Shown: piece after piece, positions 760 to 16,259 of the stretch
Layout: every line of letters starts with the position of its first letter
Position numbering within the stretch: position 1 is the first letter of the stretch
NCBI GenBank assembly: GCA_012269555.1
Contig: JAAXKA010000101.1
Location: forward strand, 1 to 41,953
Length of the DNA stretch: 41,953 nucleotides
DNA from: Alphaproteobacteria bacterium
GTDB taxonomy: Bacteria; Pseudomonadota; Alphaproteobacteria; Puniceispirillales; Puniceispirillaceae
Direction: 5' to 3'
Notes under the pieces: generated by a model
Databases searched by the model: none
The model's input: the letters and a program-made list of their open reading frames with translations, nothing else
Told to the model about the DNA's origin: nothing
Translations under genes and position numbers: made by a program

Positions 760-1956
760 TTAGGGCTCCCGTTTGTTTAATTCGTTAATCTCAGCCTTTG
801 TCATACCCAGAAAACCTTTAAGAATTTCGTTATTATGCTCTCCTAACAAAGGCGGTGGCATATTATTTTTTCGTCCTCTAACATTATCAATTTTGATTGG
901 TAGCCCTAATGATTTTATGAGCCCTGCAGTAGAATGTTGTATTTCAACTACCATGCCGTTTTCAAGTGTTTGAGGGTGTGAAAGAGACTGTGAAACAGTT
1001 CGAACCACGGCTACAGGTATTCCGCTATCTTTTAATACATTGTACCAATAATCTGCGCTATTAGAAGATAGCGCTTCCTCAATTAGCTGTTCTATTTGAT
1101 GTCTATTCTCTACCCGGTTTGCATTTTTTGCAAAGCGAGCATCTGTTATCCATTCGATGTGTCCAACACTCTCAGAAAATTGTTTGAATTGTCCATCATT
1201 CCCAACTGAAATAACGAGACTTCCCTCGCCACACTTAAATAAATTATAAGGTACAATATTAGGGTGGCCATTACCATATCGCTTTGCCTCTGCACCAGAA
1301 ATAAGATAGTTAGATGCTACATTTGCTAGCAGAAAAATACCTGTATTGTATAAATTGACATCAATAACAGACCCAGTTTTTGTTCTGTATCGTTTATTCA
1401 ATGCAGCTAAAATTCCAATAACAGCATTCATGCCTGTAGCTATATCTACCACCGCCACACCAAGTTTCATTGGTGCTCCGTCTGACTCCCCCGTTATTGC
1501 CATTAAGCCCGATTCGGCTTGAAGAAGAAAATCATAACCTGGCATACCTCCATTTGGACCCACTGTCCCATATCCAGTGATAGAACATCTAATAACACTT
1601 GATGCCTCTTGCTCAAACCATCGGCCCGTTAGTCCCAGCTTATCTAAAAGGCCGGGTTTAAAATTATCAATTACAATGTCACTTTTCTTAACGAGATTTT
1701 TTAGCACTTTAAGTCCAGATGGTGATTTAAAATCAAGTGCCAAGCTTTTTTTATTTCTATTTACTCCAAGAAAATATGCTGCTTCGGTATCTGCGAAGGG
1801 AGGGCCCCAATGCCTTGTATCGTCTCCTCTTCCAGGGTGTTCAACCTTAATGACTTCTGCGCCCATATCAGCTAACATTTGAGCACACAAGGGACCCGCT
1901 AGTACCCTTGTCAGGTCTAAAACAACAACCCCATCTAATGCATTACCCTCTGTCAT
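760..1956 (-). CDS. CaiB/BaiF family (class III) CoA-transferase
   Basis: The 398-aa protein has the usual family length and the family opening (VVVLDLTRVLAGP, then a KVEHPGRGDDTR segment). The motif GYDFLLQAESG places the expected catalytic aspartate at D142. Class III enzymes move CoA between carboxylic acids through an acyl-aspartyl intermediate; racemases of the AMACR type share the fold. The start is supported by AGGAAAG just upstream of the ATG at 1956. It lies between a crotonase gene 138 nt upstream and the MLE-type gene 6 nt downstream, which suggests it activates an acid for a CoA-linked pathway. The acyl substrate is unknown. Confidence 0.92.
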   Translation of the reverse strand: MTEGNALDGVVVLDLTRVLAGPLCAQMLADMGAEVIKVEHPGRGDDTRHWGPPFADTEAAYFLGVNRNKKSLALDFKSPSGLKVLKNLVKKSDIVIDNFKPGLLDKLGLTGRWFEQEASSVIRCSITGYGTVGPNGGMPGYDFLLQAESGLMAITGESDGAPMKLGVAVVDIATGMNAVIGILAALNKRYRTKTGSVIDVNLYNTGIFLLANVASNYLISGAEAKRYGNGHPNIVPYNLFKCGEGSLVISVGNDGQFKQFSESVGHIEWITDARFAKNANRVENRHQIEQLIEEALSSNSADYWYNVLKDSGIPVAVVRTVSQSLSHPQTLENGMVVEIQHSTAGLIKSLGLPIKIDNVRGRKNNMPPPLLGEHNNEILKGFLGMTKAEINELNKREP

Positions 1957-2094: not shown

Positions 2095-2952
2095 TCAGCC
2101 CTTTTTCATATTATCGTCATTATGAAGTCCATTGAGGTAGTCTTTTACTTCTGCAGCATTTCGTTGCCTAAATTTCTGAAAATCAGGCTTTCGCTTCTCT
2201 AAAAATGCATGCATACCCTCTAATGACTCCTCAGAACCCCATACGTGAGCCAGTAACTCCATTCCATGCTGCCATGATGCATAAAGTTCGTCTGACTCGG
2301 CATTCAATGATTTTTTAGTCTGTCGCAATGTCTGACCACTGTGGCTATTAATCTTCTTAACCCATTCAAGCGTTTCCTCATACAATTTATCTTGAGGAAC
2401 ACACTTATTTATAAGACCAACCTTTACCGCCTCTTCTGCTTTGAATGAACGCGCCAAAAATATCATTTCGCGTGCAATTCGCTCTCCCACTATACGGGGT
2501 AAATATTGTGTTGCGCCAACTGTTGGACATGCACCAACTCGAGCTCCTGTTTGGCCAAGTACTGCATTTTCAGATGCAATTACAAGGTCACACCAAAGCG
2601 CTAATTCATGGCCACCACCCATGCACCAGCCATTCACCATTGCTATGACAGGGACAGTAACGCCTCGGATAGCCATGGCCAGGCCTAGCATACGATCATT
2701 CCAATGAGCTGCATTCACCCAATTTAATCTTTTCATTGCATAAAAATCACCACCAGCTGAAAATGCTTGTTCTCCAGCTCCAGTAATCACTATGCATGAA
2801 ATCGATGGATCATTTCTTGTCTCAAGCACTGCTTCACGCAATTCATCTAATGTTTGTTCACGAAAAGCGTTTCTTACCTCTGGTCTATTTATCGTAATCC
2901 AGGCGGCACTCTCTTTTACTTCAACGAGAATTTCATTATACTTAGTTTTCAT
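2095..2952 (-). CDS. Enoyl-CoA hydratase/isomerase (crotonase) family, BadI/MenB-like
   Basis: The 285-aa protein has crotonase features: an oxyanion-hole segment near residues 63-70 (AGEQAFSAGGDF) and MVNGWCMGGGHELALWCDL near residue 110. The following GQTGARVG and YLPRIVGERIARE segments resemble naphthoyl-CoA synthase MenB and the ring-opening hydrolase BadI more than beta-oxidation hydratases. It overlaps the upstream VOC gene by about 11 nt, so the pair is translationally linked. A role in cleavage of a cyclic or beta-keto acyl-CoA is plausible but inferred. There are no menaquinone genes nearby, which argues against true MenB. Confidence 0.88.
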   Translation of the reverse strand: MKTKYNEILVEVKESAAWITINRPEVRNAFREQTLDELREAVLETRNDPSISCIVITGAGEQAFSAGGDFYAMKRLNWVNAAHWNDRMLGLAMAIRGVTVPVIAMVNGWCMGGGHELALWCDLVIASENAVLGQTGARVGACPTVGATQYLPRIVGERIAREMIFLARSFKAEEAVKVGLINKCVPQDKLYEETLEWVKKINSHSGQTLRQTKKSLNAESDELYASWQHGMELLAHVWGSEESLEGMHAFLEKRKPDFQKFRQRNAAEVKDYLNGLHNDDNMKKG

Positions 2953-3382
2953 ATTTTATTCCTTTTCCATTTTTGTTTTCCACGATTTCAACTAAAATAC
3001 TGCTCGTATCAGAGGGATGCATAAAAAACATCTTTTGACCATGGTGCCCTTCTGACGGTTCACCAAGAACCCTCATTTTATTGTTTTTGATTTTTTTTGA
3101 TGATTCTTCTGCATCTGTTGTTACAGCGCAGAAATGGTGCATAGCACCTTTAGGATTACGCTCCAAAAACTTGGCTATGGGGCTTTGTTCATTTAAGGGT
3201 TCGATAAGCTCGATTTTTACATTCTGAAAATGAATGTAAGCCATTCTAATTCCTTGTTCAGATACAATTTTTGGTAATGTAATCTCAGCGCCAAAAAGCT
3301 TTGAGTACTGCTCTAAAACTGGTTCAATTTTCGGAACAGCAATCGCAATGTGATCAAGTACATTATCTGCAACTTTCTCCAA
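2942..3382 (-). CDS. Methylmalonyl-CoA epimerase-like VOC protein
   Basis: This short vicinal-oxygen-chelate protein has two glyoxalase-like halves. Near the N-terminus is LDHIAIAV with a candidate metal His, centrally GAMHHFCA with a second His, and near the end SILVEIVE with a candidate Glu ligand; all match methylmalonyl-CoA epimerase. The start is a choice. A GTG at 3388 directly abuts AGGGG, whereas the in-frame TTG at 3382 has AGGGG about 6 nt away, so TTG is preferred (MEKVADNV). No methylmalonyl-CoA mutase gene is in the window, so it may act on a related acyl-CoA. It leads the epimerase-crotonase pair, and a TATCGATAA palindrome lies about 35 nt upstream of the start. Confidence 0.8.
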   Translation of the reverse strand: MEKVADNVLDHIAIAVPKIEPVLEQYSKLFGAEITLPKIVSEQGIRMAYIHFQNVKIELIEPLNEQSPIAKFLERNPKGAMHHFCAVTTDAEESSKKIKNNKMRVLGEPSEGHHGQKMFFMHPSDTSSILVEIVENKNGKGIKYEN

Positions 3383-3417
3383 ATTCACCCCCTACTGCAA
3401 ATTCTTTAAATTAAAAA

Positions 3418-3444: not shown

Positions 3445-4203
3445 TTATGAACTTAAAATTAATGCAATACCAAGACAAAATAGAACAGCATAGGTAATAT
3501 ATCTGAAATAAATTTCAGACACTATATCAAAGAGGAATATTCCGGTCCTTAACCCGATTGAAAGAGGAACAGACAATAACAATCCCAAGGTAAGAAATCT
3601 TGAGTCAAAACCTTCTACAAAAATAAAATATGCAAAAAAAGATAATATCGTGAAAATAATTACTAATTGAATATTACTTTGAATAACATTTTTTTCAACT
3701 GGGGAAGATAGAAAATAAATTCCGGTAAATGGCCCAGTAGGCACCCCAAAAAACCCTGAGAAAAGTCCTGTTATCCAGCCAAACCCAAGTGAGATAAATC
3801 TTGTTTGCGGACCATTGTACCTCCATCCAGAAAATAAAATTAACGTTCCTACAAGAATAAAGATACCCATGTAAAAAGTGATTTCTGAAATTTCATTTTG
3901 AAAAAGAAAGTTTAGCCCAATGAAGGCTCCAATACATAGTCCCAAACTGTAAAAAAGAGTGATCCTTTTTTGAGAATATTTTACAGCCCTTCTTATTGTA
4001 AAAGTAACTCCCACTAAACCTGATAAGATAATGATGTTCATTCCAGGGATAGGTCCAAGAAGAAGAGTATAGCAAGGCAACATAAATAATGACCCTGCAA
4101 AACCAGTAAATCCTCGGACAACCCCTCCAAGAAAGGCAATTAAAACACAGGTTAACAGAGTGGTTAATTCCAGCTCAAACAATTCAAAAATTCCGATGGT
4201 CAT
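3445..4203 (-). CDS. TauE/SafE family membrane transporter
   Basis: The 252-aa protein is strongly hydrophobic with about eight predicted membrane segments. The family hallmark GGVVRGFTGFAGSLFMLP is near the N-terminus and a second inner repeat, GLFSGFFGVPTGPF, near residue 165. TauE/SafE proteins are inner-membrane permeases, often exporters of sulfite, sulfonates or other small organic anions. AGGA sits just before the ATG. The gene is divergent from the cyclase operon and lies upstream of the epimerase/crotonase genes on the same strand. A second TauE-type gene lies at 24520-25266. Substrate unknown. Confidence 0.85.
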   Translation of the reverse strand: MTIGIFELFELELTTLLTCVLIAFLGGVVRGFTGFAGSLFMLPCYTLLLGPIPGMNIIILSGLVGVTFTIRRAVKYSQKRITLFYSLGLCIGAFIGLNFLFQNEISEITFYMGIFILVGTLILFSGWRYNGPQTRFISLGFGWITGLFSGFFGVPTGPFTGIYFLSSPVEKNVIQSNIQLVIIFTILSFFAYFIFVEGFDSRFLTLGLLLSVPLSIGLRTGIFLFDIVSEIYFRYITYAVLFCLGIALILSS

Positions 4204-4391
4204 ATTCCTAAACAGGGAGAAAAATTTGTTAGTCGTTTGTACTTATATCGTGCAGGTGAAGTTATTAATAGTTGTTTTTTACTCTGGAAGTAGATTAACA
4301 TTTTTTCAAATAAACCAGATAATTAATTGTGCATTGTTAATCGGTTGCTAGTAGAAATACTTGTTTTATTCTAAAATAGAGGGAGAAGGAA

Positions 4392-5363
4392 TTGACAAAA
4401 AAGAAAATTACCAGAGAGGATTTAAGCATAGCAGCTGAAAAGTATAAAAATTGGGGTAAATGGGGAGCGAATGACGAAATAGGCACCTTAAATTATACTA
4501 CAGCAAATGATATTGTCGAAGCATCAAGGCTAGTTAATCAAGGCAAAGTAATCTCTCTTGCTTTAAATTTTGACTCTAGTGGTCCTCAAGGTGCTAAATC
4601 TAAATATCAATCATTAGGCAGAATAAACCCACTTCATACAATGTTGAGAACCGGAACTGATGCTTATTCTGGTGTTCTCGACCAGCGTGGTATTCGAGCG
4701 GCAGACGATATGATTGTAATGCCACTTCAATCTGGGACCCAATGGGATGGTCTCGGACATGTATTTTACGAAAATTATATGTGGAATGGATATGATTGCA
4801 GAGAGGTGACTTCTTCAGGTGCTCAAAAATGTGGAATAGAGAAAACCAAAAATAAAATGGTGGGTCGAGGCGTTTTGCTTGATGTTCCCAGAGAAATGGG
4901 GGTTGCGCGACTTGAGGATGGTTATGGTATCACATGCGAAGATTTGGATAGAACTGCTAAATCTCAGCAGGTAGAAATTAAACGTGGAGATTATGTTATT
5001 GTTCGTACTGGCCAGATGGAAGAAATGCTTAAGGCCGGCAGTTGGGATGGTTACCCAGGAGGTGATGCACCAGGGTTTGCCTTTGAGACGCTAGACTGGC
5101 TGCAAGAAAAAGAAATTTCTGCAATAGCATCAGATACTTGGGGATGCGAAGTGCGACCCAATGAAGCAGAAGAGGGTATCAACCAACCGTGGCACTGGAT
5201 TACAATTCCTATAATGGGGATCACAATGGGTGAGATATTTTTTCTTGGTGATTTAGCATCAGATTGTGCAAGTGATGGGATTTACGAATTTATGTTTGTT
5301 GCGCCTGCGTTGCCGATTACGGGTGCAGTTGGTTCCCCTACTAATCCGCTTGCTATAAAATAA
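4392..5363 (+). CDS. Cyclase family protein (PF04199, kynurenine-formamidase-like fold)
   Basis: The 323-aa protein starts at TTG with GGGAGAAGGA directly upstream. The family metal/catalytic motif is HxGTHxDxPxH; here it reads QSGTQWDGLGH at residues 113-123, keeping D119 and H123 but with Gln at the first two His positions and Leu for Pro. GTQWDG variants occur in this family, so this is a divergent rather than a broken enzyme. SDTWGCEVRPN and a late His-rich segment (QPWHW) also fit. Family members hydrolyse amides or lactones or cyclise polyketides. It is the first gene of a four-gene plus-strand group. Confidence 0.85.
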   Translation: MTKKKITREDLSIAAEKYKNWGKWGANDEIGTLNYTTANDIVEASRLVNQGKVISLALNFDSSGPQGAKSKYQSLGRINPLHTMLRTGTDAYSGVLDQRGIRAADDMIVMPLQSGTQWDGLGHVFYENYMWNGYDCREVTSSGAQKCGIEKTKNKMVGRGVLLDVPREMGVARLEDGYGITCEDLDRTAKSQQVEIKRGDYVIVRTGQMEEMLKAGSWDGYPGGDAPGFAFETLDWLQEKEISAIASDTWGCEVRPNEAEEGINQPWHWITIPIMGITMGEIFFLGDLASDCASDGIYEFMFVAPALPITGAVGSPTNPLAIK

Positions 5364-5422
5364 AGTGATGGGTGAGAATCCTGCTAACTTGAATTTAGTT
5401 AAACATAATGGAACTTTAAAAA

Positions 5423-7099
5423 ATGAAAAAACAAACAGGTGCAGTTGTACTAGCTGAATTACTGAAATCCTTGGGCGTAACTCATATTTTTATGGTTCCA
5501 GCTGTTTTAAGAAGAACTATGGTTGAGATTGAGAAAAGGACCAACATCAAAAGACTCCATGTACATTCAGAAAAATCTGCTGCTTACATGGCAGATGGTT
5601 ATGCACGAGTATCTCACAAACCTGCTATTTGCATGGCCCAAATAATTGGTGCCTTAAATATTGCAGCTGGGCTCAGAGATGCCTTCCTCGCCCATTCACC
5701 AGTAATCGCTTTGACAGGTGGACGTGAACCAAAGACAAAATTTAAAAAAGTATATCAGGAAATCGATGATATGCCTGCTTTTGAACCAGTAACAAAATTT
5801 AATGCTACGATTGATGATGTAAATCGTTTTTCAGACATGATGGAACAAGCTTTTAGAGTTGCCACTTCAGGTTCACCAGGTCCAGTTCACTTGCAGTTTA
5901 GAGGAAATGAAGCGCAAATAGACCTAGAAGAAACAGAGGTAGAGGTTACTATAAATGAAATCAACATCCAAATTCCTCCTCATCGGCCCATATGTGCTGA
6001 TCGTGTTTTAAAAAAAGCACTTGAGGCCATTCAAAAAGCCACTAAGCCTATTATTGTTGCCGGAGGAGGCGCAAGACATTCTGGATGCTCGAAAGAATTA
6101 CTAACGTTTGCTGAAAAACTTAGCATACCTATCGCAACCTCCCTCAATGGGAAAGACTTAATCAAATCAAACCATCCTCTTTCTTGTGGCGTTGTAGGCA
6201 CTTACTCTCGGGAATCAGCCAATCTATCTGTAAAAGAAGCAGACCTAGTAATCTTTATTGGCTCCGAAACAGGCTCTATGACAACCCACTTTTGGGCTGT
6301 TCCATCCAGTAAAGTTAGGGTTATTCAAATTGATATTGAACCTGAAAATCTAGGTAGAAATTATAATCTTGAAGTAGCCATTCATGGAGATGCAAAAGTT
6401 GTTTTAGAAAGAATGACCAAACTCGCTGATTCAAAAAATTTTCCAGAGAGAACAGAATGGCTCTCGCTGATAACAAAATTACGCAGTGATTGGTATAATA
6501 AATATCAACCACTAATGGAGAGTGACGCTAAACCTATTAGACCAGAAAGATTATGTCAGGAAATTAGCAATGCTGCCCCAAAAAACGCAGTATTTGTGGT
6601 AGATACGGGTCATGCAGGCATGTGGATGGGGGGTATGTTTGATTTAACTCATTCAGAACAAACCTATATAAGGAGCGCAGGCCATCTTGGATGGGCCTTC
6701 CCTGCCTCTCTTGGTGCAAAATGTGCTTTACCTGATAAACCAGTTATTTGCTTCACTGGAGATGCTGGTTTTTGGTACCATATTGCCGAAATTGAAGTAG
6801 CCGTTAGATGGAATATAAATACAATAGTGATTGTAAATAATAATAGTGGCGGCAATCAATCTAAGCGTGGATTTGATAGAGCTTATGGCGGAGAGCAAAC
6901 AGAGGAAGGACGTCAACTTTGGACATTTAATAATATAAATTTTGCCGCTATAGCTGAAAACATTGGTGCCGTAGGTATAAGGGTGGAAAACGCGAAAGAA
7001 ATAAAGCCAGCCATCGAAAAAGCTATAGAGTTAAATAAACCCGTTATTATTGATGTTGTAACTGACATCAATGCGTTAGCGCCATTGGCTACTGTTTGA
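5423..7099 (+). CDS. ThDP-dependent enzyme, acetolactate synthase-like
   Basis: The 558-aa length fits the acetolactate synthase/benzoylformate decarboxylase superfamily with Pyr, central and PP domains. The cofactor-activating glutamate is E50 in HSEKSAAYMADGYAR. The diphosphate/Mg motif starts GDAG at 446-449 and ends with NNN at 472-474. The central domain carries PIIVAGGGARHSG. It is too generic to name: possibilities include acetolactate synthase-like lyases, 2-oxoacid decarboxylases and ring-cleaving 1,2-dione hydrolases. No small regulatory subunit (IlvN) follows, which argues against a biosynthetic IlvB. It sits 59 nt after the cyclase gene in the same direction. Confidence 0.88.
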   Translation: MKKQTGAVVLAELLKSLGVTHIFMVPAVLRRTMVEIEKRTNIKRLHVHSEKSAAYMADGYARVSHKPAICMAQIIGALNIAAGLRDAFLAHSPVIALTGGREPKTKFKKVYQEIDDMPAFEPVTKFNATIDDVNRFSDMMEQAFRVATSGSPGPVHLQFRGNEAQIDLEETEVEVTINEINIQIPPHRPICADRVLKKALEAIQKATKPIIVAGGGARHSGCSKELLTFAEKLSIPIATSLNGKDLIKSNHPLSCGVVGTYSRESANLSVKEADLVIFIGSETGSMTTHFWAVPSSKVRVIQIDIEPENLGRNYNLEVAIHGDAKVVLERMTKLADSKNFPERTEWLSLITKLRSDWYNKYQPLMESDAKPIRPERLCQEISNAAPKNAVFVVDTGHAGMWMGGMFDLTHSEQTYIRSAGHLGWAFPASLGAKCALPDKPVICFTGDAGFWYHIAEIEVAVRWNINTIVIVNNNSGGNQSKRGFDRAYGGEQTEEGRQLWTFNNINFAAIAENIGAVGIRVENAKEIKPAIEKAIELNKPVIIDVVTDINALAPLATV

Positions 7100-7153
7100 T
7101 TTTATATAATCCGTGAAATTATGTTAGATACTTAAAAGCTACAGGAGAATTTT

Positions 7154-8335
7154 TTGAGATATCCCAGTATAGACAAAGATAACTATCCACTTGGTTTTTT
7201 ATTCATTAATGGAAACGAACAACCGAGTATTGTAAAGGGCGGTAGCGGTAAAACAACCTTTAAGACCCATGCCAGACAAATGGCATTATTCCAGAAAGAA
7301 GCGCTTGTTCAAGAAGGCGAGAGAGGCAGCAGATGGAGGCTTTCATCAGATGAAGGAAAACATCTTTCTGGGACTGACCTCGCTCCATTTCCTCTTGGTT
7401 TTTTTAATGCTGCTCTTCATGGTGATTTGATTGGACGAATTCGTCATTTTGCAAATGTTGATAACCTAGATATCAAACAAATAGATATGGAAGTGTCTAA
7501 TTTTTACTACATGACTGGCTCTTTTGTAAAAGGGGATGCAGCAGGACATGCAGAGCCTCCTTTAATTGAAATATCTTTTAGTGCAAAAGCAAACCCGGAA
7601 GAGATAAACCAGATAGTTGCAAAAGCTTTATTGGCCTCCCCATTTATCTATGGCTATAAAAATGCCCTCCATAGTCGTTTTTCTTTGTTCATAAACGGGA
7701 CTCAAAAAAAACTCTCAAATTTGCCGAATTGTCCCGTGGACGCAGCTGAAGATCCCTTCATGATTTACAAGGCATCTCCTGCACCTAAAGAAGGTTTTAA
7801 ATTTATGGAGAACATAATCCGAAAAACAGGAACTGAATTAGAGGGTGAAATAACAAAAGCCCCAACCGGTACAACAACGAAAATTATTCGTAATATCTAT
7901 GGAGAAAGCCACAGTGATTTAAAATCAAGCAGAGTAATTGCTGATACGGTGCTTGGTCTTCCTGGAATGACACGCTTTGAGATTGGAAGTGACGAGGGCG
8001 GAAATACTGGCCCTTCTGGCTTAAGCCATCTATGCGCAGGCATATCTTTTTGCTTTTTAACACAGTTGCACAGATATATCGAACATCAAAAATTCTCTAT
8101 AAATAATATGCGTCTTACTCAGACAATTGACTTTGAAGTAAGTGAAGAGGAAAATATTAAAACTGGAAAGATGGCCGCAGTTGACACGCATCTTTTTATG
8201 AACGGTGAAGCCTCAGAAGAAGAATATGAAAGGCTTTTGGAATTATCTGCTAGGTCCTGTTATCTTCATGCGACCCTTGCAACACCATTAGAACCAAAAG
8301 TAGAAATTTGCTTAAATGGAAATTCTATTTCATAA
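7154..8335 (+). CDS. Tandem OsmC-like protein (two OsmC-type halves in one chain)
   Basis: The 393-aa protein starts at TTG with AGGAG 7 nt upstream. The N-half (about 30-190) and C-half (about 225-390) each show an OsmC-like pattern: a long helix after a glycine/proline turn, a strand segment, then a second helix (ALLASPFIYG in the N-half, LSARSCYLHATLATP in the C-half). OsmC/Ohr proteins are normally about 140 aa and dimerise; here the dimer seems fused. Cys294 (SHLCAG) and Cys369 (ARSCYL) in the C-half fit the two-cysteine peroxidase centre, whereas the N-half has no Cys at either position. The assignment rests on pattern recognition. It lies between the ThDP enzyme and the hydrolase. Confidence 0.68.
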   Translation: MRYPSIDKDNYPLGFLFINGNEQPSIVKGGSGKTTFKTHARQMALFQKEALVQEGERGSRWRLSSDEGKHLSGTDLAPFPLGFFNAALHGDLIGRIRHFANVDNLDIKQIDMEVSNFYYMTGSFVKGDAAGHAEPPLIEISFSAKANPEEINQIVAKALLASPFIYGYKNALHSRFSLFINGTQKKLSNLPNCPVDAAEDPFMIYKASPAPKEGFKFMENIIRKTGTELEGEITKAPTGTTTKIIRNIYGESHSDLKSSRVIADTVLGLPGMTRFEIGSDEGGNTGPSGLSHLCAGISFCFLTQLHRYIEHQKFSINNMRLTQTIDFEVSEEENIKTGKMAAVDTHLFMNGEASEEEYERLLELSARSCYLHATLATPLEPKVEICLNGNSIS

Positions 8336-8366
8336 AATAAAAAACTGAGAGGCCAAAAAAATAAAA

Positions 8367-9590
8367 ATGAAATCACTTAGAACCAAACGAGATGAACAAC
8401 AATGGATGCTTGATCTTGCACTTAATATGCGAGGGAGAGTCCAAAATTTTGAACGAGATGATTGGGAAACACCAAAACGCGCTCATAATTATCGGATGCT
8501 TCCAAAAATGTGGAGACAAAAAGCAGAACATGATGAGGCTTTAGCAAAACAGGCTGAAAAACAAGGTTTCCTAATGACCGCTTTAGAGCATTATGAACAT
8601 GCAGTTGAAGCCTACAGAATGGCACAGCACCCCATTTATTTTGACGACAATCCTGTAAAAATATATTTGACTAAAAAACTTGCTGAAATGGTGGATAGAA
8701 GAAGCGCCATTTCTCCTTACCCGATAGAACGCATAGAGGTACCATTTGATGATGGTAAAACAATTTCCTGTCTTTTGCACTTGCTTCCAGACAGACGTAA
8801 AGCTCCTTGTATAATCTATGTACCAGGAATGGACCAAACAAAAGAATATTTTCCAAAGGTAATGAATAATCTAGCTATAAACAGAGGAATGCATGTCATT
8901 TCTATGGATGGTCCGGGGCAGGGCAACTCAAATATGCAGAAAATTCGTGCTGTTGGAAATAATTATGAGCGTGCTGGTGCTGCTGTTATCTCATACCTTC
9001 AGACAAGAGAAGAAATAGATAGCGAACGCATTGGTATTTATGGAGTAAGTATGGGGAGCTATTGGTCGCTTCGTTTAGCAAGTTATGACCATCGAGCCGC
9101 TGCCATAGCTAGTGGTGTTGCGTGTTTTAATCCCAATAATACTATTTTTTCTGTCTCTTCACCACGCTTCAAACAGATGTTTATGTATATGGCAGGAATG
9201 GAGGATGAGAATGAATTTGATAAAATGTCGTCTGAAATGACAGTAAAAGGATATTCCGATAAAATTACTTGTCCAACATTGCTAGCCACCGGTGAGTTTG
9301 ATCCATTGTGCCCATTAGAGGATGCTATTGAAGTTTTCGAGGATCTCAAATGTAGAAAAGAAATGTGGGTAATTGAAGACCAATTTCATCCTTTATGGGG
9401 AATACCCAATTTAGGTAAACTAGACTGCCATCATTATATTATGGACTGGCTACAACGCGTGCTTTTTTCCAAAAATCCTGAAGAAGGATTAGCAAACGGA
9501 CGCATTGCATACGTCGCGAATAATGGTGACGGGCCATGGGGTGACTGCCAATGGGAACCTCCGATTAGTAGTAATGATTCCTATTTTTAA
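8367..9590 (+). CDS. Alpha/beta hydrolase, 2,6-dihydroxypseudooxynicotine hydrolase/FrsA-like
   Basis: The 407-aa protein has an N-terminal helical region (about 1-115, TPR-like AxxHYEHAVEAYR) and a C-terminal alpha/beta hydrolase domain. The nucleophile elbow GVSMGS gives Ser228, the acid is Asp312 in GEFDP, and the base His341 in DQFHPLWG. The architecture matches the C-C-bond hydrolase of nicotine breakdown and its relatives, which cleave 1,3-diketone-type bonds. It ends the plus-strand group and is followed at once by a terminator. The true substrate is unknown; a generic esterase role is the alternative. Confidence 0.82.
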   Translation: MKSLRTKRDEQQWMLDLALNMRGRVQNFERDDWETPKRAHNYRMLPKMWRQKAEHDEALAKQAEKQGFLMTALEHYEHAVEAYRMAQHPIYFDDNPVKIYLTKKLAEMVDRRSAISPYPIERIEVPFDDGKTISCLLHLLPDRRKAPCIIYVPGMDQTKEYFPKVMNNLAINRGMHVISMDGPGQGNSNMQKIRAVGNNYERAGAAVISYLQTREEIDSERIGIYGVSMGSYWSLRLASYDHRAAAIASGVACFNPNNTIFSVSSPRFKQMFMYMAGMEDENEFDKMSSEMTVKGYSDKITCPTLLATGEFDPLCPLEDAIEVFEDLKCRKEMWVIEDQFHPLWGIPNLGKLDCHHYIMDWLQRVLFSKNPEEGLANGRIAYVANNGDGPWGDCQWEPPISSNDSYF

Positions 9591-9593
9591 GAT

Positions 9594-9636
9594 AGAAAAA
9601 AAGGCGGCTTGAATTGACAAGCCGCACTTTCATTTT
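9594..9636. terminator. Bidirectional Rho-independent terminator
   Basis: Perfect 8-bp stem GCGGCTTG (9604-9611) / CAAGCCGC (9618-9625) with loop AATTGA. A run of seven A on the left gives a U-tract for minus-strand transcripts, and a T-rich stretch on the right serves plus-strand transcripts. It sits between the convergent hydrolase and amidohydrolase genes. Confidence 0.88.
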
Positions 9637-9649
9637 TTATTAATACTTG

Positions 9650-10714
9650 TTAAAGCCCTAAAAGCTTTTCAGCGTTACCCCCAACAATTTTTGCAATATC
9701 CTCTTCAGTCAAGGAAGTGGTGCCCGTAACATGACCTATTGGGTCATCCTCTGCCATATCATACGGATAATCTGTACCCATTACAATTTTGTCAGAACCA
9801 TATATTTTAACCAGATAGTCCAACTGCTCATAAGTAAATACTACTGTATCAAAATATATTTTCTTTAAGTAGTCAGATGGCTTGTTCTTTATAATTTCAC
9901 GACAATCTGGACGAGCGCCCCAGGCGTGGTCTATTCGTCCTGCGTATGCTGGGAGGTATCCACCCCCGTGAACGGCAAGAATTTTCAAGCCTGGGTATCT
10001 TTCAAGAGTGCCATCAAAAATTAAATGATGAATTGCAACCGTTGTATCTAGGGGGTTTCCAATAACATTATTAAAATAGTGATTTAAGAAGCGGTCACCT
10101 TGAGGATATCCATTAGGATGCAAAACCATCAAAGTATCAAGCTTTTCTGCCATCTCCCACATTGGGTCTAGACTTCTGTCTGATAATTCAGAGCCGTTGA
10201 CTGAACCCAGTACCTGAAATCCTTTTAATCCTAATTCTTTGACTCCTCGTTCCATCTCTTTGGCAGCAGCATCTCCATCTTGCAGCGGCAAATGCCCAAG
10301 AGCTAGAAATCTATCAGGGCGAGATTGAGCAATTGAGGATAATTTATTGTTAATTGTTTGTATGGCTTTATGCCCAACAGAATTTCGAACTGAATAATAT
10401 GCCTGAAAGGGAACAGGAATAAGCACCTGCATATCGATACCTTGTCTATCCATATCGCGAAGACGTTGGTCTAAATCTGTTAGGTGGACGATTCTATCTT
10501 CTTGGTTTTGTTTTACATTTTGAGCGGTAGTACGCGGATTTGAATATCTAACAGCCGGTATAGCCATCGGATTTAAAATCCCGTCAACTAAATCATGTGC
10601 TTCCTGAACGTGTAAATGACAATGTGCATCAATTGTAAGACGTGAAGGGCGTGTTTCAGCTCCTGACTTGCCATGTTCTCTGGCAGCGGTTGCGCCATAA
10701 GGTCTTAATTCCAT
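9650..10714 (-). CDS. Amidohydrolase family 2 protein (ACMSD-type metal-dependent decarboxylase/hydrolase)
   Basis: The 354-aa protein has the N-terminal HxH metal motif in IDAHCHLHV, a mid-protein His in MVLHPNG, and the C-terminal Asp in GTDYPYDM, all typical of the amidohydrolase_2 family, which includes 2-amino-3-carboxymuconate-6-semialdehyde decarboxylase and gamma-resorcylate decarboxylase. GGAGG sits just before the ATG. It converges on the hydrolase operon across the shared terminator and diverges from the CoA-transferase genes. It probably acts on an aromatic-acid-derived or ring-cleavage intermediate, but no specific substrate can be assigned. Confidence 0.88.
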   Translation of the reverse strand: MELRPYGATAAREHGKSGAETRPSRLTIDAHCHLHVQEAHDLVDGILNPMAIPAVRYSNPRTTAQNVKQNQEDRIVHLTDLDQRLRDMDRQGIDMQVLIPVPFQAYYSVRNSVGHKAIQTINNKLSSIAQSRPDRFLALGHLPLQDGDAAAKEMERGVKELGLKGFQVLGSVNGSELSDRSLDPMWEMAEKLDTLMVLHPNGYPQGDRFLNHYFNNVIGNPLDTTVAIHHLIFDGTLERYPGLKILAVHGGGYLPAYAGRIDHAWGARPDCREIIKNKPSDYLKKIYFDTVVFTYEQLDYLVKIYGSDKIVMGTDYPYDMAEDDPIGHVTGTTSLTEEDIAKIVGGNAEKLLGL

Positions 10715-10838
10715 TTTTATCCTCCGAAAAAACCAAAAAGTATACCATTTCCATTCTTTGCTTAAATTACAAAAGAAATAGCCTATTAATATTTACCTGC
10801 TTTATACGTGAAACTTGTAATATTCACATCTAGCAAAA

Positions 10839-10847
10839 TATCGATAA
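10839..10847. promoter_or_regulatory. Candidate operator TATCGATAA (copy 2)
   Basis: Palindrome plus A in the 248-nt divergent gap between the amidohydrolase (minus) and CoA-transferase (plus) genes, about 116 nt before the latter start and 125 nt from the former. It could serve either promoter. The rest of this gap is A/T-rich with no gene recognised. Confidence 0.45.
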
Positions 10848-10962
10848 TATGCTACAAACAACACACATAAAACAACAAATATTTTACATAAAACAAAATA
10901 AAAATCATATTTTATAAAAATGTAATCTTGATTTAGCAATATGTTTATGGCGTCATCTGAAA

Positions 10963-11838
10963 ATGGTAGATAAAATAATGACTGCTCAACAAGCAGTGAA
11001 AAAATACGTAAATAATTCTGATATGGTTTTTGTTGGTGGTTTTGGTCATGCAATTCCATTTTCAATAGCGCAGGAAATCGTTCGTCAAAAAAAATATGGC
11101 CTGCACTTGATAAAAACTGGGGCTGATATCGTCTTCGATATGCTGGTTGCAAGTGGTTGTGCCCAACGTTTAACGTGTGGTTGGTATGGCAATCCAGGCA
11201 TGGGCATGAGTAATGTTATTAGACAGGCGGTTGAGTCAGACACACTTGAATTGATCGAAAGCACAAATTTTTCAATGATGTTGCGCTTACATGCAGGAAA
11301 ACTTGGCGTACCGTTTATTCCTTCTCCTATTCTTTCCGATGGCGATCTTGCACACACAGTTTCAGGAATAAAATCTATAAAGTGTCCGTTTACAGATGCT
11401 GAAATCCAAGCTCATGGTTCCTTAAATCCCGATGTTGCTATCGTTCATGCACAACGCTCCGATGTAAATGGCAACGTGCAACTATGGGGCTCTATTGGCG
11501 ATACTGTAGATGGATGCGAGGCATCAAAAAAAATTATTTGTTCCGTTGAAGAGATTTGCCGAGATGATGAAATTGCTCTTATGCCTCATCTTACAAAATT
11601 ACCAGCACACAAAGTTGTTGCCGTCATAGAGCAACCCTTTGGGGCCTATCCTTCCTATTTACATGGTTTCTATCAAAGAGATGAAAAATATTATGCAGAC
11701 CATAGTATCAATACCAAAGATGCTTTAAAAACAGAGGAATGGCTTCAATCAACTATTTACAATCATAATGATTTTAATAGCTATCTTCAAAGCCTACCAG
11801 ATGACTTATTAAAAAAGCTAGAATGGACTAATTCATGA
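10963..11838 (+). CDS. CoA-transferase family I, subunit A (GctA/AtoD-like)
   Basis: The 291-aa protein opens like family I CoA-transferase alpha subunits: MTAQQAVKKYV followed by a glycine-rich VFVGGFGHAIP, with later segments HAQRSDVNGNVQLWG and ACPV-like CSVEEI. Two starts are possible, ATG at 10963 or 10978; neither has a strong SD, and the longer is kept. It overlaps subunit B by 4 nt (ATGA). Such pairs transfer CoA to glutaconate, 3-oxoacids and similar acids. The related IpdAB-type proteins open rings in steroid breakdown, so a hydrolase role is possible. Confidence 0.87.
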   Translation: MVDKIMTAQQAVKKYVNNSDMVFVGGFGHAIPFSIAQEIVRQKKYGLHLIKTGADIVFDMLVASGCAQRLTCGWYGNPGMGMSNVIRQAVESDTLELIESTNFSMMLRLHAGKLGVPFIPSPILSDGDLAHTVSGIKSIKCPFTDAEIQAHGSLNPDVAIVHAQRSDVNGNVQLWGSIGDTVDGCEASKKIICSVEEICRDDEIALMPHLTKLPAHKVVAVIEQPFGAYPSYLHGFYQRDEKYYADHSINTKDALKTEEWLQSTIYNHNDFNSYLQSLPDDLLKKLEWTNS

Positions 11839-12593
11839 AAACTAAGATAGTGAACGAAGGTGCTCAGAAACAAAAAATATCAGATGATTCGATTTCACAA
11901 ACAAGAGCAGCTTTCATGGCATCCAGTGAAATCTTAGAGTGTAAAACAATTTTTGTTGGCATTGGATTGCCATGTTTAGTTGCTCACATAGCCCAGAATT
12001 ATACATCACCAAACTGTCACCTTGTGTTTGAGTCAGGACTAATGGAGGTAATGTGCAAAACACAACCTTTATCTACTGCAAGCGCAAATATTGCAAAAAC
12101 TTCAAAAATGCATGGTTCTATGCTGGATGTATTCAGTATGCTCCAGAGAGGCGAGATTGATGTTGGTTTATTATCTGCAGCTCAAATAGATGTGAACGGA
12201 AACCTTAACAGCAGCAAGCTCACAACAAAATCTGGAAAAACTATATCATTACCAGGCTCAGGAGGAGCTCACGATATTTCGGTGTTGGCAAATAAAGTAG
12301 TTGTTGTTATGCCATCTGACCCAAGACGCTTTGTAAATAATGTTGATTTCATCACTTCTCCAAATATGCCATATGGTGATAGAAAGGGTGTGGTTGGCGT
12401 TGCTATGCCAGATGCATATTTCAGCTTCAAAGCAGGAAAGGCTGTCTTACAAAAAATTTATTCTGATAGGAGTGCTGAGGAAATCAGAACCTCTTTAAAT
12501 TGGGATGTGGAAATCTCGTCAACACTAGAAAGGATTGATCCGCCGTCAAATAGACTACTAGAGGGTGCGGATATATTTTTACAGAATAATTAA
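11835..12593 (+). CDS. CoA-transferase family I, subunit B (GctB/AtoA-like)
   Basis: The 252-aa beta subunit has FVGIGLPCLVAHIAQ near residue 40, VFESGL with candidate catalytic Glu66, and the family-typical RGEIDVGLLSAAQIDVNGNLNSS in mid-protein, followed by GSGGAHDIS. The ATGA overlap with subunit A implies coupled translation and a heteromeric enzyme. Having Glu in the ESG segment favours transfer through a glutamyl-CoA intermediate, though IpdB-like hydrolases have a similar fold. No terminator is visible downstream. Confidence 0.87.
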   Translation: MKTKIVNEGAQKQKISDDSISQTRAAFMASSEILECKTIFVGIGLPCLVAHIAQNYTSPNCHLVFESGLMEVMCKTQPLSTASANIAKTSKMHGSMLDVFSMLQRGEIDVGLLSAAQIDVNGNLNSSKLTTKSGKTISLPGSGGAHDISVLANKVVVVMPSDPRRFVNNVDFITSPNMPYGDRKGVVGVAMPDAYFSFKAGKAVLQKIYSDRSAEEIRTSLNWDVEISSTLERIDPPSNRLLEGADIFLQNN

Positions 12594-12684
12594 AATATTA
12601 TTGAATTTTAAATTAACTTAAAAAGATAAATAAATTTTTGTATGGACAAATTTTTCTTTATTGTTACACCCTAAATATAAAAAT

Positions 12685-12693
12685 TATCGATAA
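12685..12693. promoter_or_regulatory. Candidate operator TTATCGATAA (copy 3)
   Basis: Ten-base palindrome at 12684-12693, about 40 nt before the ATG of the lactonase-like gene at 12733. A weak promoter-like pair, TGGACA (12643) and TACACC (12665), would put the site just downstream of transcription start. The promoter is tentative. Confidence 0.48.
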
Positions 12694-12732
12694 ATTAATG
12701 ATCGTTAAGCATAATAAATTTTGGAGAGAGTT

Positions 12733-13626
12733 ATGACTATCAAAGATTGTATAGCACCAGATAGAAACCCACGAAAACCCAGCATAACCCTGCCGACCGG
12801 CAGTATTGATACACATGTACATATTTTTGAGAGTCATTTCCCCTTATTTGAAGGAAGAGGATACAATCCACCAGATTCTACATTGGAAGATTTAATACAT
12901 CTTCACCAAACACTTGGAATAGATAGAGTTGTTTTTACTCAGCCATCTGTTTATGGAGTAGATAATTCGGCCATTTTAAAAGGAATGAATGTTTTAAACG
13001 AAAAGATTCCAAACAAAGCACGTGGTGTTTGTGCCATTAAAATGGATGCGTCTGAAAATTTCCTTCAGGAATTGCATGAACAGGGCATTAGAGGAGTTAG
13101 ACTTAATCTAGATAACAAGGGCGGAATGCCGCTTGAACTGAAAGAGATTTCAAAACTTGAAGATAAAATAAAAGGCCTTGGTTGGCATTTAGAGTATTTG
13201 TTTCCAGGCAAAGATATTGTGGAACTAGAGCCGGTGCTCTCTAATGCATCTGTTCCCATATCAATAGGTCACTTTGCATATCAACCTGCTACGGCTGGTA
13301 TCAATTCAGATGGATTCAAAACATTATTGAAGCTTGTAAAAGATGGAAATACATGGATTAAAATATCAGGAGCTAACCGCGTAAGTGAGACAGATCTTCC
13401 ACCTTATGATGATGTTTTGCCAATGGCCAGAGCACTTGTTGAAGCTAATTCTGATAATGTAATGTGGGGTACAGACTGGCCTCATCCAAATAAATATGAA
13501 GTAAATCCAAATGATGGAGACCTGGTAAATTGGTTTGGGGAATGGATAACTGATGATACCATGCGAAAGCAAATTATGGTTACCAATTCAGAATTATTTT
13601 ATGATTTTGGTGATTATCACGGGTAA
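12733..13626 (+). CDS. COG3618-type amidohydrolase/lactonase (LigI- or sugar-lactonase-like)
   Basis: The ATG at 12733 is preferred over an in-frame TTG at 12721, because GGAGAGAG (12723-12730) is the ribosome site and would otherwise be coding. The 297-aa product has HxH in SIDTHVHIFE, DRVVFTQPSVYG, and the terminal metal Asp in MWGTDWPHP. This is the branch containing 2-pyrone-4,6-dicarboxylate lactonase and L-fucono-lactonase. Because an SDR and an IlvD/Edd dehydratase follow, hydrolysis of a sugar lactone or similar is the favoured inference; an aromatic pyrone lactone is the alternative. Confidence 0.83.
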   Translation: MTIKDCIAPDRNPRKPSITLPTGSIDTHVHIFESHFPLFEGRGYNPPDSTLEDLIHLHQTLGIDRVVFTQPSVYGVDNSAILKGMNVLNEKIPNKARGVCAIKMDASENFLQELHEQGIRGVRLNLDNKGGMPLELKEISKLEDKIKGLGWHLEYLFPGKDIVELEPVLSNASVPISIGHFAYQPATAGINSDGFKTLLKLVKDGNTWIKISGANRVSETDLPPYDDVLPMARALVEANSDNVMWGTDWPHPNKYEVNPNDGDLVNWFGEWITDDTMRKQIMVTNSELFYDFGDYHG

Positions 13627-13700
13627 ACAAATTAATAAATTTTATTGTAACATACCTTTTTAAATAAGCCGGTGTGTTCTTCATAAATTGGAGCAAATTA

Positions 13701-14462
13701 ATGAACCAAACTCAAATAAAGGTCGCACTGATTACTGGAGGTGGGACAGGCATCGGGAGATCAGCAGCAATAGCTCTGCAAAATGATAATTTTAATGTTA
13801 TCGTTTGTGGGAGAAGAAAGGAACAGCTTGAAGAAACCGCATCTATTGGAGCAACTGATAAGCCAAAAATTCGTGCCATTGTTGCCGATGTTACCGATGG
13901 TAGTTCGGTTAAATCAATATTCACAGAAATAGAAAATAACTATGGTAGATTAGATGTGCTATTCAATAATGCTGGCATGGGTGCACCTCGTGTTGAACTA
14001 GACGAATTAAGTGAAGAGGCTTGGCGTCAATGTGTTGATGTAAATCTCACTGGTAGTTTTTTGTGCGCACAAGCAGCTTTCAAATTAATGAAATCTCAAT
14101 CTCCGCAAGGAGGAAGAATAATAAATAATGGTTCAATAAGTGCCCATTCACCAAGACCTAATACAATCGCATATACAGCAACTAAACATGCTATTACAGG
14201 AATGACGAAAACAATAGCCCTAGACGGAAGGCCTTACTCTATCGCATGCTCGCAACTCGACATAGGTAATGCTGACACAGCCATTGGAAATAGATTTACA
14301 AAAGGAGTTCCTCAAGCTAATGGTGACATTATGGTTGAGCCAGTAATAGAATCAGATGAGTGTGGCCGCGCGGTAGCTTATATGGCAAGCCTTCCACTCG
14401 ATACAAATATTCTTAACATGACTATTATGGCAACAAACATGCCTTTTGTTGGCAGAGGATAA
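13701..14462 (+). CDS. Short-chain dehydrogenase/reductase (SDR)
   Basis: The ATG at 13701 follows TGGAGC by about 6 nt, so the longer reading from 13674 is rejected. The 253-aa classical SDR has the cofactor motif TGGGTGIG near residue 15, NNAG around residue 92, a catalytic Ser in INNGSISAH and YxxxK in YTATKHA. It is an NAD(P)-dependent alcohol or aldose oxidoreductase. Its place between a lactonase-like gene and a sugar-acid-type dehydratase suggests oxidation of a sugar or hydroxy acid; this is inference. Confidence 0.88.
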   Translation: MNQTQIKVALITGGGTGIGRSAAIALQNDNFNVIVCGRRKEQLEETASIGATDKPKIRAIVADVTDGSSVKSIFTEIENNYGRLDVLFNNAGMGAPRVELDELSEEAWRQCVDVNLTGSFLCAQAAFKLMKSQSPQGGRIINNGSISAHSPRPNTIAYTATKHAITGMTKTIALDGRPYSIACSQLDIGNADTAIGNRFTKGVPQANGDIMVEPVIESDECGRAVAYMASLPLDTNILNMTIMATNMPFVGRG

Positions 14463-14528
14463 AAATACAGAAAAACTCAAACTTGTATTTTTGAAAAATT
14501 CAATTCATTAGAACAGAGAAATTTTAAA

Positions 14529-16220
14529 ATGGATGATAAAAAAACTGGGATAAGACAAAATTTAACAAATTACGGGGATCTTGGTTTTTCCACATTTTTG
14601 CGTAAATCATTTATTAAGGGTCTTGGTTATTCTGATGAAATGCTTGATAAGCCGATTGTAGGTATAATAAACACATTTAGCAATTACAATTCATGCCATG
14701 GAAATGTACCTGATCTCATTCAAAGTTTAAGAGCTGGTGTTTTAGCGAAGGGCGCTATACCTCTAGAATTCCCCACAATTTCAGTCCATGAAGCCTTCAC
14801 ATATCCAACTTCTATGTATCTTCGTAATCTTATGGCAATGGATACAGAGGAAATGATTAGAGCACAACCAATGGATTCATGTGTTCTCATTGGTGGCTGT
14901 GACAAAACAGTTCCTGCCCAATTGATGGGTGCATTGAGTGTAGATATGCCAATAGTGCAATTGGTAACTGGCCCTATGCTCACGGGCTCTCATAGAGGAG
15001 AACGTGTCGGTGCCTGCACGGATTGCAGGAGACTATGGGCTAAATTCCGAGCAGAGGAAATTGATCAAGCAGAAATAGCTGAAGCAAATAATCAGCTTGT
15101 GCCAACTGTCGGGACTTGTGGCGTAATGGGTACAGCCAGCACAATGGCGATGATCGCTGAAACACTTGGATTGATGCCACCAGATTCTTCCTGTGCGCCT
15201 GCTGTCTCTTCTGAAAGGCGTAGAATTGCTGAGTATACCGGGGAAATAGCAGTTGAAATCGCAACACAGAAACGAAGGCCAAGTAGTATTCTAAGTGCAA
15301 AATCATTCGAAAATGCTTTAATTGTTCTTCTTGCGATTGGCGGTTCTACAAATGGATTAGTTCATCTAACAGCGATTGCGGGACGAATGGGTATCCAACT
15401 GGATATGGATTCATTTGATGCCCTATCAAAGGATATCCCAGTAATAGTAGACTTAAAGCCTTCTGGTGAGGGTTATATGGAGGACCTGCACAAAGCTGGC
15501 GGACTCCCAAGAATACTCTTGGAATTGAAAGATAAGTTGCATTTAGACACACACACTATTACTGGAAAAACTTTGGGGGAAATTATTGACGAAACTAATT
15601 TTTCTTGGAAACAAAAAATTGTAAAATCTGCAGGGAACCCTGTATACCGAGAGGGTGGGATAGCCGTTCTTAAAGGAAATCTTGCGCCTAACACCGCTAT
15701 TATTAAGCAATCAGCAGCAAGTGAGTCATTACTCACCCACACAGGAAGAGCGGTTGTATTTGATGGCCTTGAAGATTTAGCAAGCAGAATAGATAGTGAA
15801 GACTTGGATGTAAATGAAGATGATATTCTTGTTTTAAGATACATTGGACCAAAAGGAGCACCTGGAATGCCGGAGGCAGGATTAATTCCAATTCCTAAAA
15901 AGCTTGCTAAAAGAGGTGTTAAAGATATGGTGCGGATTTCAGATGGTCGAATGAGCGGCACCGCATCTGGAACCATAATTCTGCATGTTTGTCCTGAGGC
16001 AGCAGATGGTGGGCCACTTGCACTTGTCAAAAGTGGAGATATCATTAGCCTTGATGTGGCTACCAGAAATTTGCATCTTCACGTAGATGAGCAAGAGCTT
16101 GAAAAACGAAATAAATCTCTTGACCTTAGCAAATTTGTAGCAAAACGGGGCTATCATAAATTATATATGGACCATGTTTTGCAAGCGGATAAAGGAGTCG
16201 ATTTTGATTTTCTTATTTAA
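14529..16220 (+). CDS. IlvD/Edd family dehydratase, sugar-acid (pentonate) dehydratase-like
   Basis: The 563-aa protein has the three family Fe-S cysteines at C56 (SCHGNVPDL), C124 (GGCDKTVPAQ) and C197 (VGTCGVMGTAST), consistent with a [2Fe-2S] enzyme. Segments such as ACTDCRRLWAKFRAEEI and FPTISVHE resemble arabinonate/xylonate dehydratases more than dihydroxy-acid dehydratase IlvD. The catalytic-serine region is RISDGRMSGTASG. It converts a 2,3-dihydroxy acid to a 2-keto-3-deoxy acid. It lies 66 nt downstream of the SDR on the same strand. Substrate specificity is not resolved. Confidence 0.88.
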   Translation: MDDKKTGIRQNLTNYGDLGFSTFLRKSFIKGLGYSDEMLDKPIVGIINTFSNYNSCHGNVPDLIQSLRAGVLAKGAIPLEFPTISVHEAFTYPTSMYLRNLMAMDTEEMIRAQPMDSCVLIGGCDKTVPAQLMGALSVDMPIVQLVTGPMLTGSHRGERVGACTDCRRLWAKFRAEEIDQAEIAEANNQLVPTVGTCGVMGTASTMAMIAETLGLMPPDSSCAPAVSSERRRIAEYTGEIAVEIATQKRRPSSILSAKSFENALIVLLAIGGSTNGLVHLTAIAGRMGIQLDMDSFDALSKDIPVIVDLKPSGEGYMEDLHKAGGLPRILLELKDKLHLDTHTITGKTLGEIIDETNFSWKQKIVKSAGNPVYREGGIAVLKGNLAPNTAIIKQSAASESLLTHTGRAVVFDGLEDLASRIDSEDLDVNEDDILVLRYIGPKGAPGMPEAGLIPIPKKLAKRGVKDMVRISDGRMSGTASGTIILHVCPEAADGGPLALVKSGDIISLDVATRNLHLHVDEQELEKRNKSLDLSKFVAKRGYHKLYMDHVLQADKGVDFDFLI

Positions 16221-16259
16221 ATTCTCCTTCTTAGATTTGAAACTATATCAAAAATCGGC

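Follow-up and report, generated by a model that had tools for sequence, protein, structure and literature searches.

Four genes, encoding a PF04199 cyclase, a thiamine diphosphate (ThDP)-dependent enzyme, a tandem OsmC protein (OSMC2) and an alpha/beta hydrolase (ABHYD), lie one after another in contig JAAXKA010000101.1 of assembly GCA_012269555.1, of which a stretch of 41,953 nt, referred to here as the window, was analysed. Judging by gene order and conservation they are a real, conserved operon and one arm of a larger catabolic island of the SAR116 cluster. On the protein families present, the island is best described as being of the sugar-acid or lactone type, combining the tandem OsmC protein and its partner, a putative C-C hydrolase of the alpha/beta fold, with genus-specific cyclase and ThDP genes. 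More precisely, and tentatively (probability about 0.4), it may encode a pathway akin to Route III, non-phosphorylative and acting on a sugar acid or lactone, in which C-C cleavage would be performed by the alpha/beta hydrolase. The host is a SAR116-cluster alphaproteobacterium with a genome of 2.47 Mb in 247 contigs, 95.7% complete; its nearest named records are SAR116-cluster assemblies, with OSMC2 96% identical in AG-894-M09. SAR116 bacteria are common in the surface ocean and their diet is poorly known, and an island conserved in two families offers a defined, testable candidate.

All four genes are located on the + strand, with intergenic gaps of 59, 54 and 31 nt. The cyclase and OSMC2 genes start with TTG, each preceded by a Shine-Dalgarno-like sequence, and the ThDP and ABHYD genes with ATG; the start positions are kept in relatives, where the codon varies between TTG, GTG and ATG. 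These coordinates bear out the original prediction of four same-direction genes with 31-59-nt gaps and two TTG starts, and the catabolic-type operon that it proposed is a conserved one, its gene order being kept across the genus. The four genes recur in unchanged order, at 77-99% protein identity, in seven other loci of the genus: G001, G002, G003, G005 (= AG-894-M09), G006 (whose contig starts inside the cyclase gene), G007 and the metagenome-assembled genome PBCW01. The contigs of three further genomes are broken near the operon, beginning just past the ACMSD-like gene (G008), inside it (G009) or inside the next operon (G004), so that absence of the operon there is not demonstrated and was dropped from consideration. 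The co-occurrence of the four families in other genomes, which had been proposed as a check, holds across the genus and stops there: the set was not found outside it, and among the best 80 of the 257 stretches of named genomes that encode OSMC2 relatives only the seven genus loci add cyclase, ThDP enzyme and ABHYD.

The sister family f4 has a different arrangement. There the genes for a LigI-type amidohydrolase (Amidohyd2b, the predicted lactonase), a short-chain dehydrogenase/reductase (SDR), an IlvD dehydratase, OSMC2 and ABHYD follow each other in one direction, OSMC2 being 44-49% and ABHYD 82-84% identical to the window proteins. This operon diverges from the same TauE, glyoxalase, enoyl-CoA hydratase (ECH) and CoA-transferase genes as in the window, and contains neither a ThDP gene nor a window-type cyclase. 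In the window the lactonase, SDR and IlvD genes (12721-16220) are found 3-7 kb downstream of the operon. A distant alphaproteobacterium outside the order, G797, has ABHYD (45% identical) directly followed by OSMC2 (38%), close to an SDR, a glutathione S-transferase (GST), a second ABHYD and SMP-30 lactonases. Since OSMC2 and ABHYD stand beside lactonase, SDR and IlvD genes in the sister family, and near SDR and SMP-30 genes in G797, the functional core is probably SDR-lactonase-IlvD dehydratase-OSMC2-ABHYD, to which the cyclase and the ThDP enzyme appear to be a genus-specific addition. In 136 genomes of the order, ABHYD orthologs are present in 19, OSMC2 in those 19 and in G438, ECH in 21, and the lactonase in the same 19 and in three genus members with contigs ending near the operon. 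In G438 (L199) OSMC2 adjoins IlvD and ABHYD is absent; this locus (10425-18670) also holds a 3-hydroxyisobutyrate dehydrogenase (HIBADH)-type enzyme, a zinc alcohol dehydrogenase, a Gfo-type enzyme and a molybdopterin-domain protein. Far outside the order, in G867, a 74% identical ABHYD is clustered with a single OsmC, a glyoxalase and a Gfo-type enzyme.

Route III, described for L-fucose, L-rhamnose and pentoses, proceeds through an aldose dehydrogenase, a lactonase, a dehydratase, a 4-dehydrogenase and a C-C hydrolase (PMC6336799, PMC11199699). The scheme that we infer for the island, including its reactions, step order, substrate and the role of OSMC2, builds on the observed gene order, conservation, protein families, catalytic triad, cysteine pair and predicted folds. 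The SDR would most likely produce a lactone by oxidising a cyclic hemiacetal or alcohol, and the LigI-like amidohydrolase would open it; from the hydroxy acid so formed, the IlvD enzyme would then remove water to give a 2-keto-3-deoxy acid. Oxidation of the latter would give a 2,4-dicarbonyl compound whose C-C bond the serine hydrolase ABHYD would cut, yielding a keto acid and a hydroxy acid. The CoA-transferases and the crotonase would take on these products, OSMC2 would handle a thiol-reactive intermediate or by-product from the hydrolase step, and the cyclase and ThDP enzyme, an addition of the window's genus, would deal with a further or alternative intermediate. The IlvD protein scores above the PRK06131 cut-off; among solved structures it is most closely related to a dihydroxyacid dehydratase and to L-arabinonate dehydratase.

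Several points weigh against this scheme. The 4-dehydrogenase step has no assigned gene, as the core holds one SDR only, with Gfo- and HIBADH-type enzymes nearby. The LigI-like protein would suit pyrone or muconolactone chemistry as readily as sugar lactones, and the genes for the ACMSD-like protein, the crotonase and the CoA-transferases speak for a ring-derived compound and not a sugar; with all of these present, a ring-derived lactone stays possible as the substrate. DHPON-hydrolase-fold enzymes, among which ABHYD belongs (see below), include peptidase- and esterase-like members, which leaves C-C cleavage by ABHYD unproven. The cyclase and the ThDP enzyme have no explained role in a Route III-like scheme, the enzyme steps are assigned by family, and the phyletic counts (ABHYD in 19 of 136 genomes) reflect two clades, not independent events.

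The fold closest to that of ABHYD is 2,6-dihydroxypseudooxynicotine (DHPON) hydrolase (2JBW; Z 37.2, root-mean-square deviation 2.7, 343 residues aligned), followed by FrsA, AntI and Ayg1; the match covers the N-terminal helices, with residues 1-35 of the model being of low confidence. The triad S228/D312/H341 is intact, and invariant in 17 homologs, in keeping with the DHPON-hydrolase-like enzyme that had been predicted. A second ABHYD paralog of the same genome (L046, G000 contig C114, 27098-28252) is 38% identical and has one in-frame TAA in the matched stretch; it is open in genus relatives.

The C-terminal half of OSMC2 scores above the cut-offs for PF02566 and NF041052. The N-terminal half has no Pfam match, and it is OsmC-like both by profile, aligning to 2OPL, and by predicted structure, so that the label "tandem" given to the protein earlier is right. 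The AlphaFold2 model of OSMC2 (mean predicted local distance difference test score 94.3) matches OsmC/Ohr entries at Z 8.2-12.6, well clear of the next matches at Z 5; 2opl aligns to residues 31-181, and many single-domain OsmC/Ohr chains align over both halves. As these single-domain chains span both halves, the model is consistent with an OsmC dimer built into one polypeptide, a predicted pseudo-dimer with one thiol site. The active-site cysteines are confined to the C-terminal half: all 89 relatives have C300 and C369, the former being in part imposed by the search pattern and the latter not, and none of them has selenocysteine at these positions. R62 and R307, either of which may supply the arginine beside C300, are likewise invariant. 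The entry 9WO1 was considered as a solved structure of a tandem OsmC and rejected, since the match is limited to its C-terminal part; it is probably another kind of protein, possibly a hydrolase-OsmC fusion. The best 80 of the 257 OSMC2 relatives come from many phyla and are 371-412 aa long; the tandem OsmC is a widespread, large single-chain family and not unique to this locus, and no assigned function for it was found. In Polynucleobacter rarus (L064 9977-12383) two convergent, adjoining tandem-OsmC genes encode proteins 39% and 28% identical to that of the window.

Neighbouring genes of OSMC2 relatives were counted in the 41 loci whose flanks were complete, a set that contains duplicates and many closely related sequences; genes within 5 kb were taken as near and those beyond as far. 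Aldehyde dehydrogenase genes are near in 19 and far in 5, one SDR type near in 11 and far in 1, and a PobA-type (FAD) monooxygenase near in 8 and far in 2, while GST genes show no enrichment (9 near, 8 far). The trend of these neighbourhoods is catabolic and not stress related. IlvD-type Fe-S dehydratases are oxygen sensitive, and this, together with the OsmC/Ohr fold and its conserved cysteine pair, would favour OSMC2 as a plain peroxide-detoxifying enzyme carried with the catabolic genes and without a pathway role, a notion compatible with any pathway. We regard it as somewhat unlikely: apart from the catabolic neighbourhoods, a fused hydrolase-OsmC esterase, EstRM, had no peroxidase activity in spite of possessing both cysteines, and the OsmC part of such fused proteins was termed enigmatic by the authors (PMC5113044). 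Because the hydrolase-OsmC partnership is known from these fusions, by analogy OSMC2 most likely acts on a thiol-reactive pathway intermediate or by-product of the hydrolase step. A bolder version, in which OSMC2 is itself catalytic, a thiol-dependent enzyme preparing or rescuing the substrate of the C-C hydrolase in an undescribed catabolic pathway and not a detoxifier, is unlikely; if it is true, the enigmatic esterases in which hydrolase and OsmC are fused would be explained by the same coupling.

Alternatively, the substrate of the island might be a lactone or muconate of aromatic origin; ABHYD would then split the product of ring fission, and OSMC2 would process reactive by-products or guard against them. 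Amidohyd2b is closest to LigI and 4-sulfomuconolactone hydrolase, the second amidohydrolase, Amidohyd2a, is closest to ACMSD, and LigI, PrpF and PobA-type genes occur close to OSMC2 at some distant loci. The enrichment of LigI and PrpF near OSMC2 is small, though (5 near, 2 far, duplicates included), an IlvD dehydratase is not a customary part of such routes, and no ring-cleaving oxygenase is found among the scanned window genes. The LigAB-type extradiol dioxygenase of protocatechuate 4,5-cleavage was likewise not found, a PF02900 search giving no match in the 95.7% complete genome. We hold an aromatic substrate of this kind to be improbable.

The cyclase matches PF04199 with 77.4 bits against a cut-off of 23.1. 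The metal-dependent members of PF04199 carry the motif HxGTHxDxPxH; the window protein has QSGTQWDGLGH at that place, and a short cyclase of the sister family retains HTGTHVDAFSH. The only solved relative, 5IBZ, is uncharacterised, and paralogs or homologs of 49-65% identity are found elsewhere in the order. With the motif missing and 5IBZ uncharacterised, the lactone or amide opening proposed for this protein is weakly founded. The ThDP enzyme is a full three-domain protein (PF02776, PF00205 and PF02775) with the activating Glu in an HSEK motif. Whether it is a carboligase or a lyase cannot be told, since it falls under the curated NCBIfam cut-off for all 25 families listed (best 341.8 against 673). 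Its best solved relatives are BbmA, hydroxyacyl-CoA lyases and glyoxylate carboligase, with cyclohexane-1,2-dione hydrolase ranked well below them. Relatives at E < 1e-80 are confined to this genus among the 136 genomes of the order. Composition gave no indication that the gene was gained horizontally, its GC content of 0.397 and third-position GC of 0.269 resembling those of the neighbours. Plasmid relatives reach 43% identity for the ThDP enzyme and at most 35% for ABHYD, in unrelated or SMP-30/TTT contexts.

The original prediction took the four genes alone to be a route by which an alicyclic or N-heterocyclic compound is opened by the cyclase and cut by the ThDP enzyme and the hydrolase. 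Cyclohexane-1,2-dione hydrolase among the ThDP relatives, the likeness of ABHYD to the DHPON hydrolase of nicotine breakdown and the gene order kept across the genus speak for it, but a self-contained pathway of this kind is unlikely given a set restricted to the genus, a sister-family OSMC2-ABHYD operon lacking both the ThDP enzyme and the cyclase, the missing HxGTHxD metal motif and the low rank of cyclohexane-1,2-dione hydrolase. As to the accompanying remark that no described pathway is known with this gene set plus a fused OsmC protein, no published description of the four-gene set was found in the open-access literature, which is weak evidence of novelty; the tandem OsmC itself is widespread.

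The strong terminator predicted after the operon corresponds to a stable hairpin, GCGGCTTG-6-CAAGCCGC (folding z -5.75), with T tracts on both strands, which would also serve the convergent gene 9650-10714. Terminator-like sites in the region are no more numerous than in shuffled sequences (5 against 5.2), so the support for this one comes from its own stability and position. At the other end, the 18-bp element TTATTAATAGTTGTTTTT is identical in every genus relative possessing the region and has a single genomic site at ≤1 mismatch; TTATATCGTG, directly 5' of it, is largely conserved too. The 18-bp element could serve the divergent gene pair as operator or promoter. A regulon controlled through it was rejected, there being only one site in the genome, and it is not evidently retained in the divergent region of the sister family.

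Table 1. Features of the operon and of the island around it (positions in the window).
Positions	Strand	Feature	Remarks
760-1956	-	CoA-transferase family III (CaiB-like)	
2095-2952	-	Crotonase (DHNA-CoA synthase/BadI-like ECH)	Phyletic profile tracks core
2942-3388	-	Glyoxalase/methylmalonyl-CoA epimerase-like protein	Above TIGR03081 cut-off
3445-4203	-	TauE/SafE-family transporter	Divergent partner of operon; kept in both families
4262-4279	+	Invariant 18-bp element TTATTAATAGTTGTTTTT	Divergent promoter region
4392-5363	+	PF04199 cyclase, 323 aa	TTG start; long subtype; QSGTQWDGLGH replacing HxGTHxDxPxH
5423-7099	+	ThDP-dependent enzyme, 558 aa	Three domains; activating Glu in HSEK motif
7154-8335	+	Tandem OsmC protein (OSMC2), 393 aa	TTG start; Cys pair C300/C369 in C-terminal half
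8367-9590	+	DHPON-hydrolase-like alpha/beta hydrolase (ABHYD), 407 aa	Triad S228/D312/H341
9604-9625	both	Bidirectional intrinsic-terminator-like hairpin	Between operon and convergent ACMSD-like gene
9650-10714	-	Amidohydrolase_2 (Amidohyd2a)	Closest solved relatives ACMSD decarboxylases; kept in both families
10963-12593	+	Two-subunit CoA-transferase family I (A/B)	Island member in this genus
12721-13626	+	Amidohydrolase_2 (Amidohyd2b), LigI/4-sulfomuconolactone hydrolase type	Predicted lactonase
13674-14462	+	SDR dehydrogenase	Within OSMC2-ABHYD operon in sister family
14529-16220	+	IlvD/EDD dehydratase, sugar-acid type	Directly upstream of OSMC2 in sister family

The wider catabolic island extends over 760-30512 and further includes a malonyl-CoA-synthetase-like ligase, an NMT1/SsuA-type ABC transporter, an FAH hydrolase, two 3-hydroxyisobutyrate-dehydrogenase-type enzymes, a flavin reductase, a CMD protein and a polysaccharide-deacetylase-family protein. 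The FAH protein is encoded at 22653-23522, outside the core, within which there is no FAH gene. In one sister genus (L048 1616-3760, L053 15541-17685) an EgtB-EgtD-like fusion, of the ergothioneine biosynthesis type, separates the TauE gene from the lactonase operon.

The proteins of the operon resemble well-described enzymes, each with its own departures. The ThDP enzyme shares the three-domain architecture and the activating Glu with enzymes of the acetolactate synthase/BbmA/glyoxylate carboligase type, but remains below every listed NCBIfam functional cut-off. ABHYD has the full-length fold, the Ser-Asp-His triad and the TKE motif in common with DHPON hydrolase, but is 22% identical to it and does not lie in a nicotine cluster. 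The fold and the cysteine pair of OSMC2 are those of OsmC/Ohr peroxidases (3CJE, Ohr), both halves being OsmC-like; in contrast to them it comprises two halves in one chain, with active-site cysteines in the C-terminal one only. As in Route III, a dehydrogenase, a lactonase, an acid dehydratase and a candidate C-C hydrolase are clustered with a transporter, and the sister-family operon joins the first three with the hydrolase, by family only; the L-fucose lactonase of Route III is a COG3618 amidohydrolase, a likeness to the amidohydrolase lactonase of the window. The known versions of Route III use an FAH-family hydrolase, whereas here an alpha/beta hydrolase lies beside the genes, a tandem OsmC is added and the second dehydrogenase is without an assigned gene. 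With the OsmC-domain carboxylesterases of the EstRM type (PMC5113044) the operon shares an alpha/beta hydrolase tied to an OsmC with two active-site cysteines, but the two are separate open reading frames (7154-8335 and 8367-9590) rather than one polypeptide, the OsmC is doubled, and the hydrolase belongs to the DHPON/FrsA type and is not a small esterase. This recurring partnership of OsmC and alpha/beta hydrolase, fused in EstRM and operonic here, provides a route to the role of catabolic OsmC proteins.

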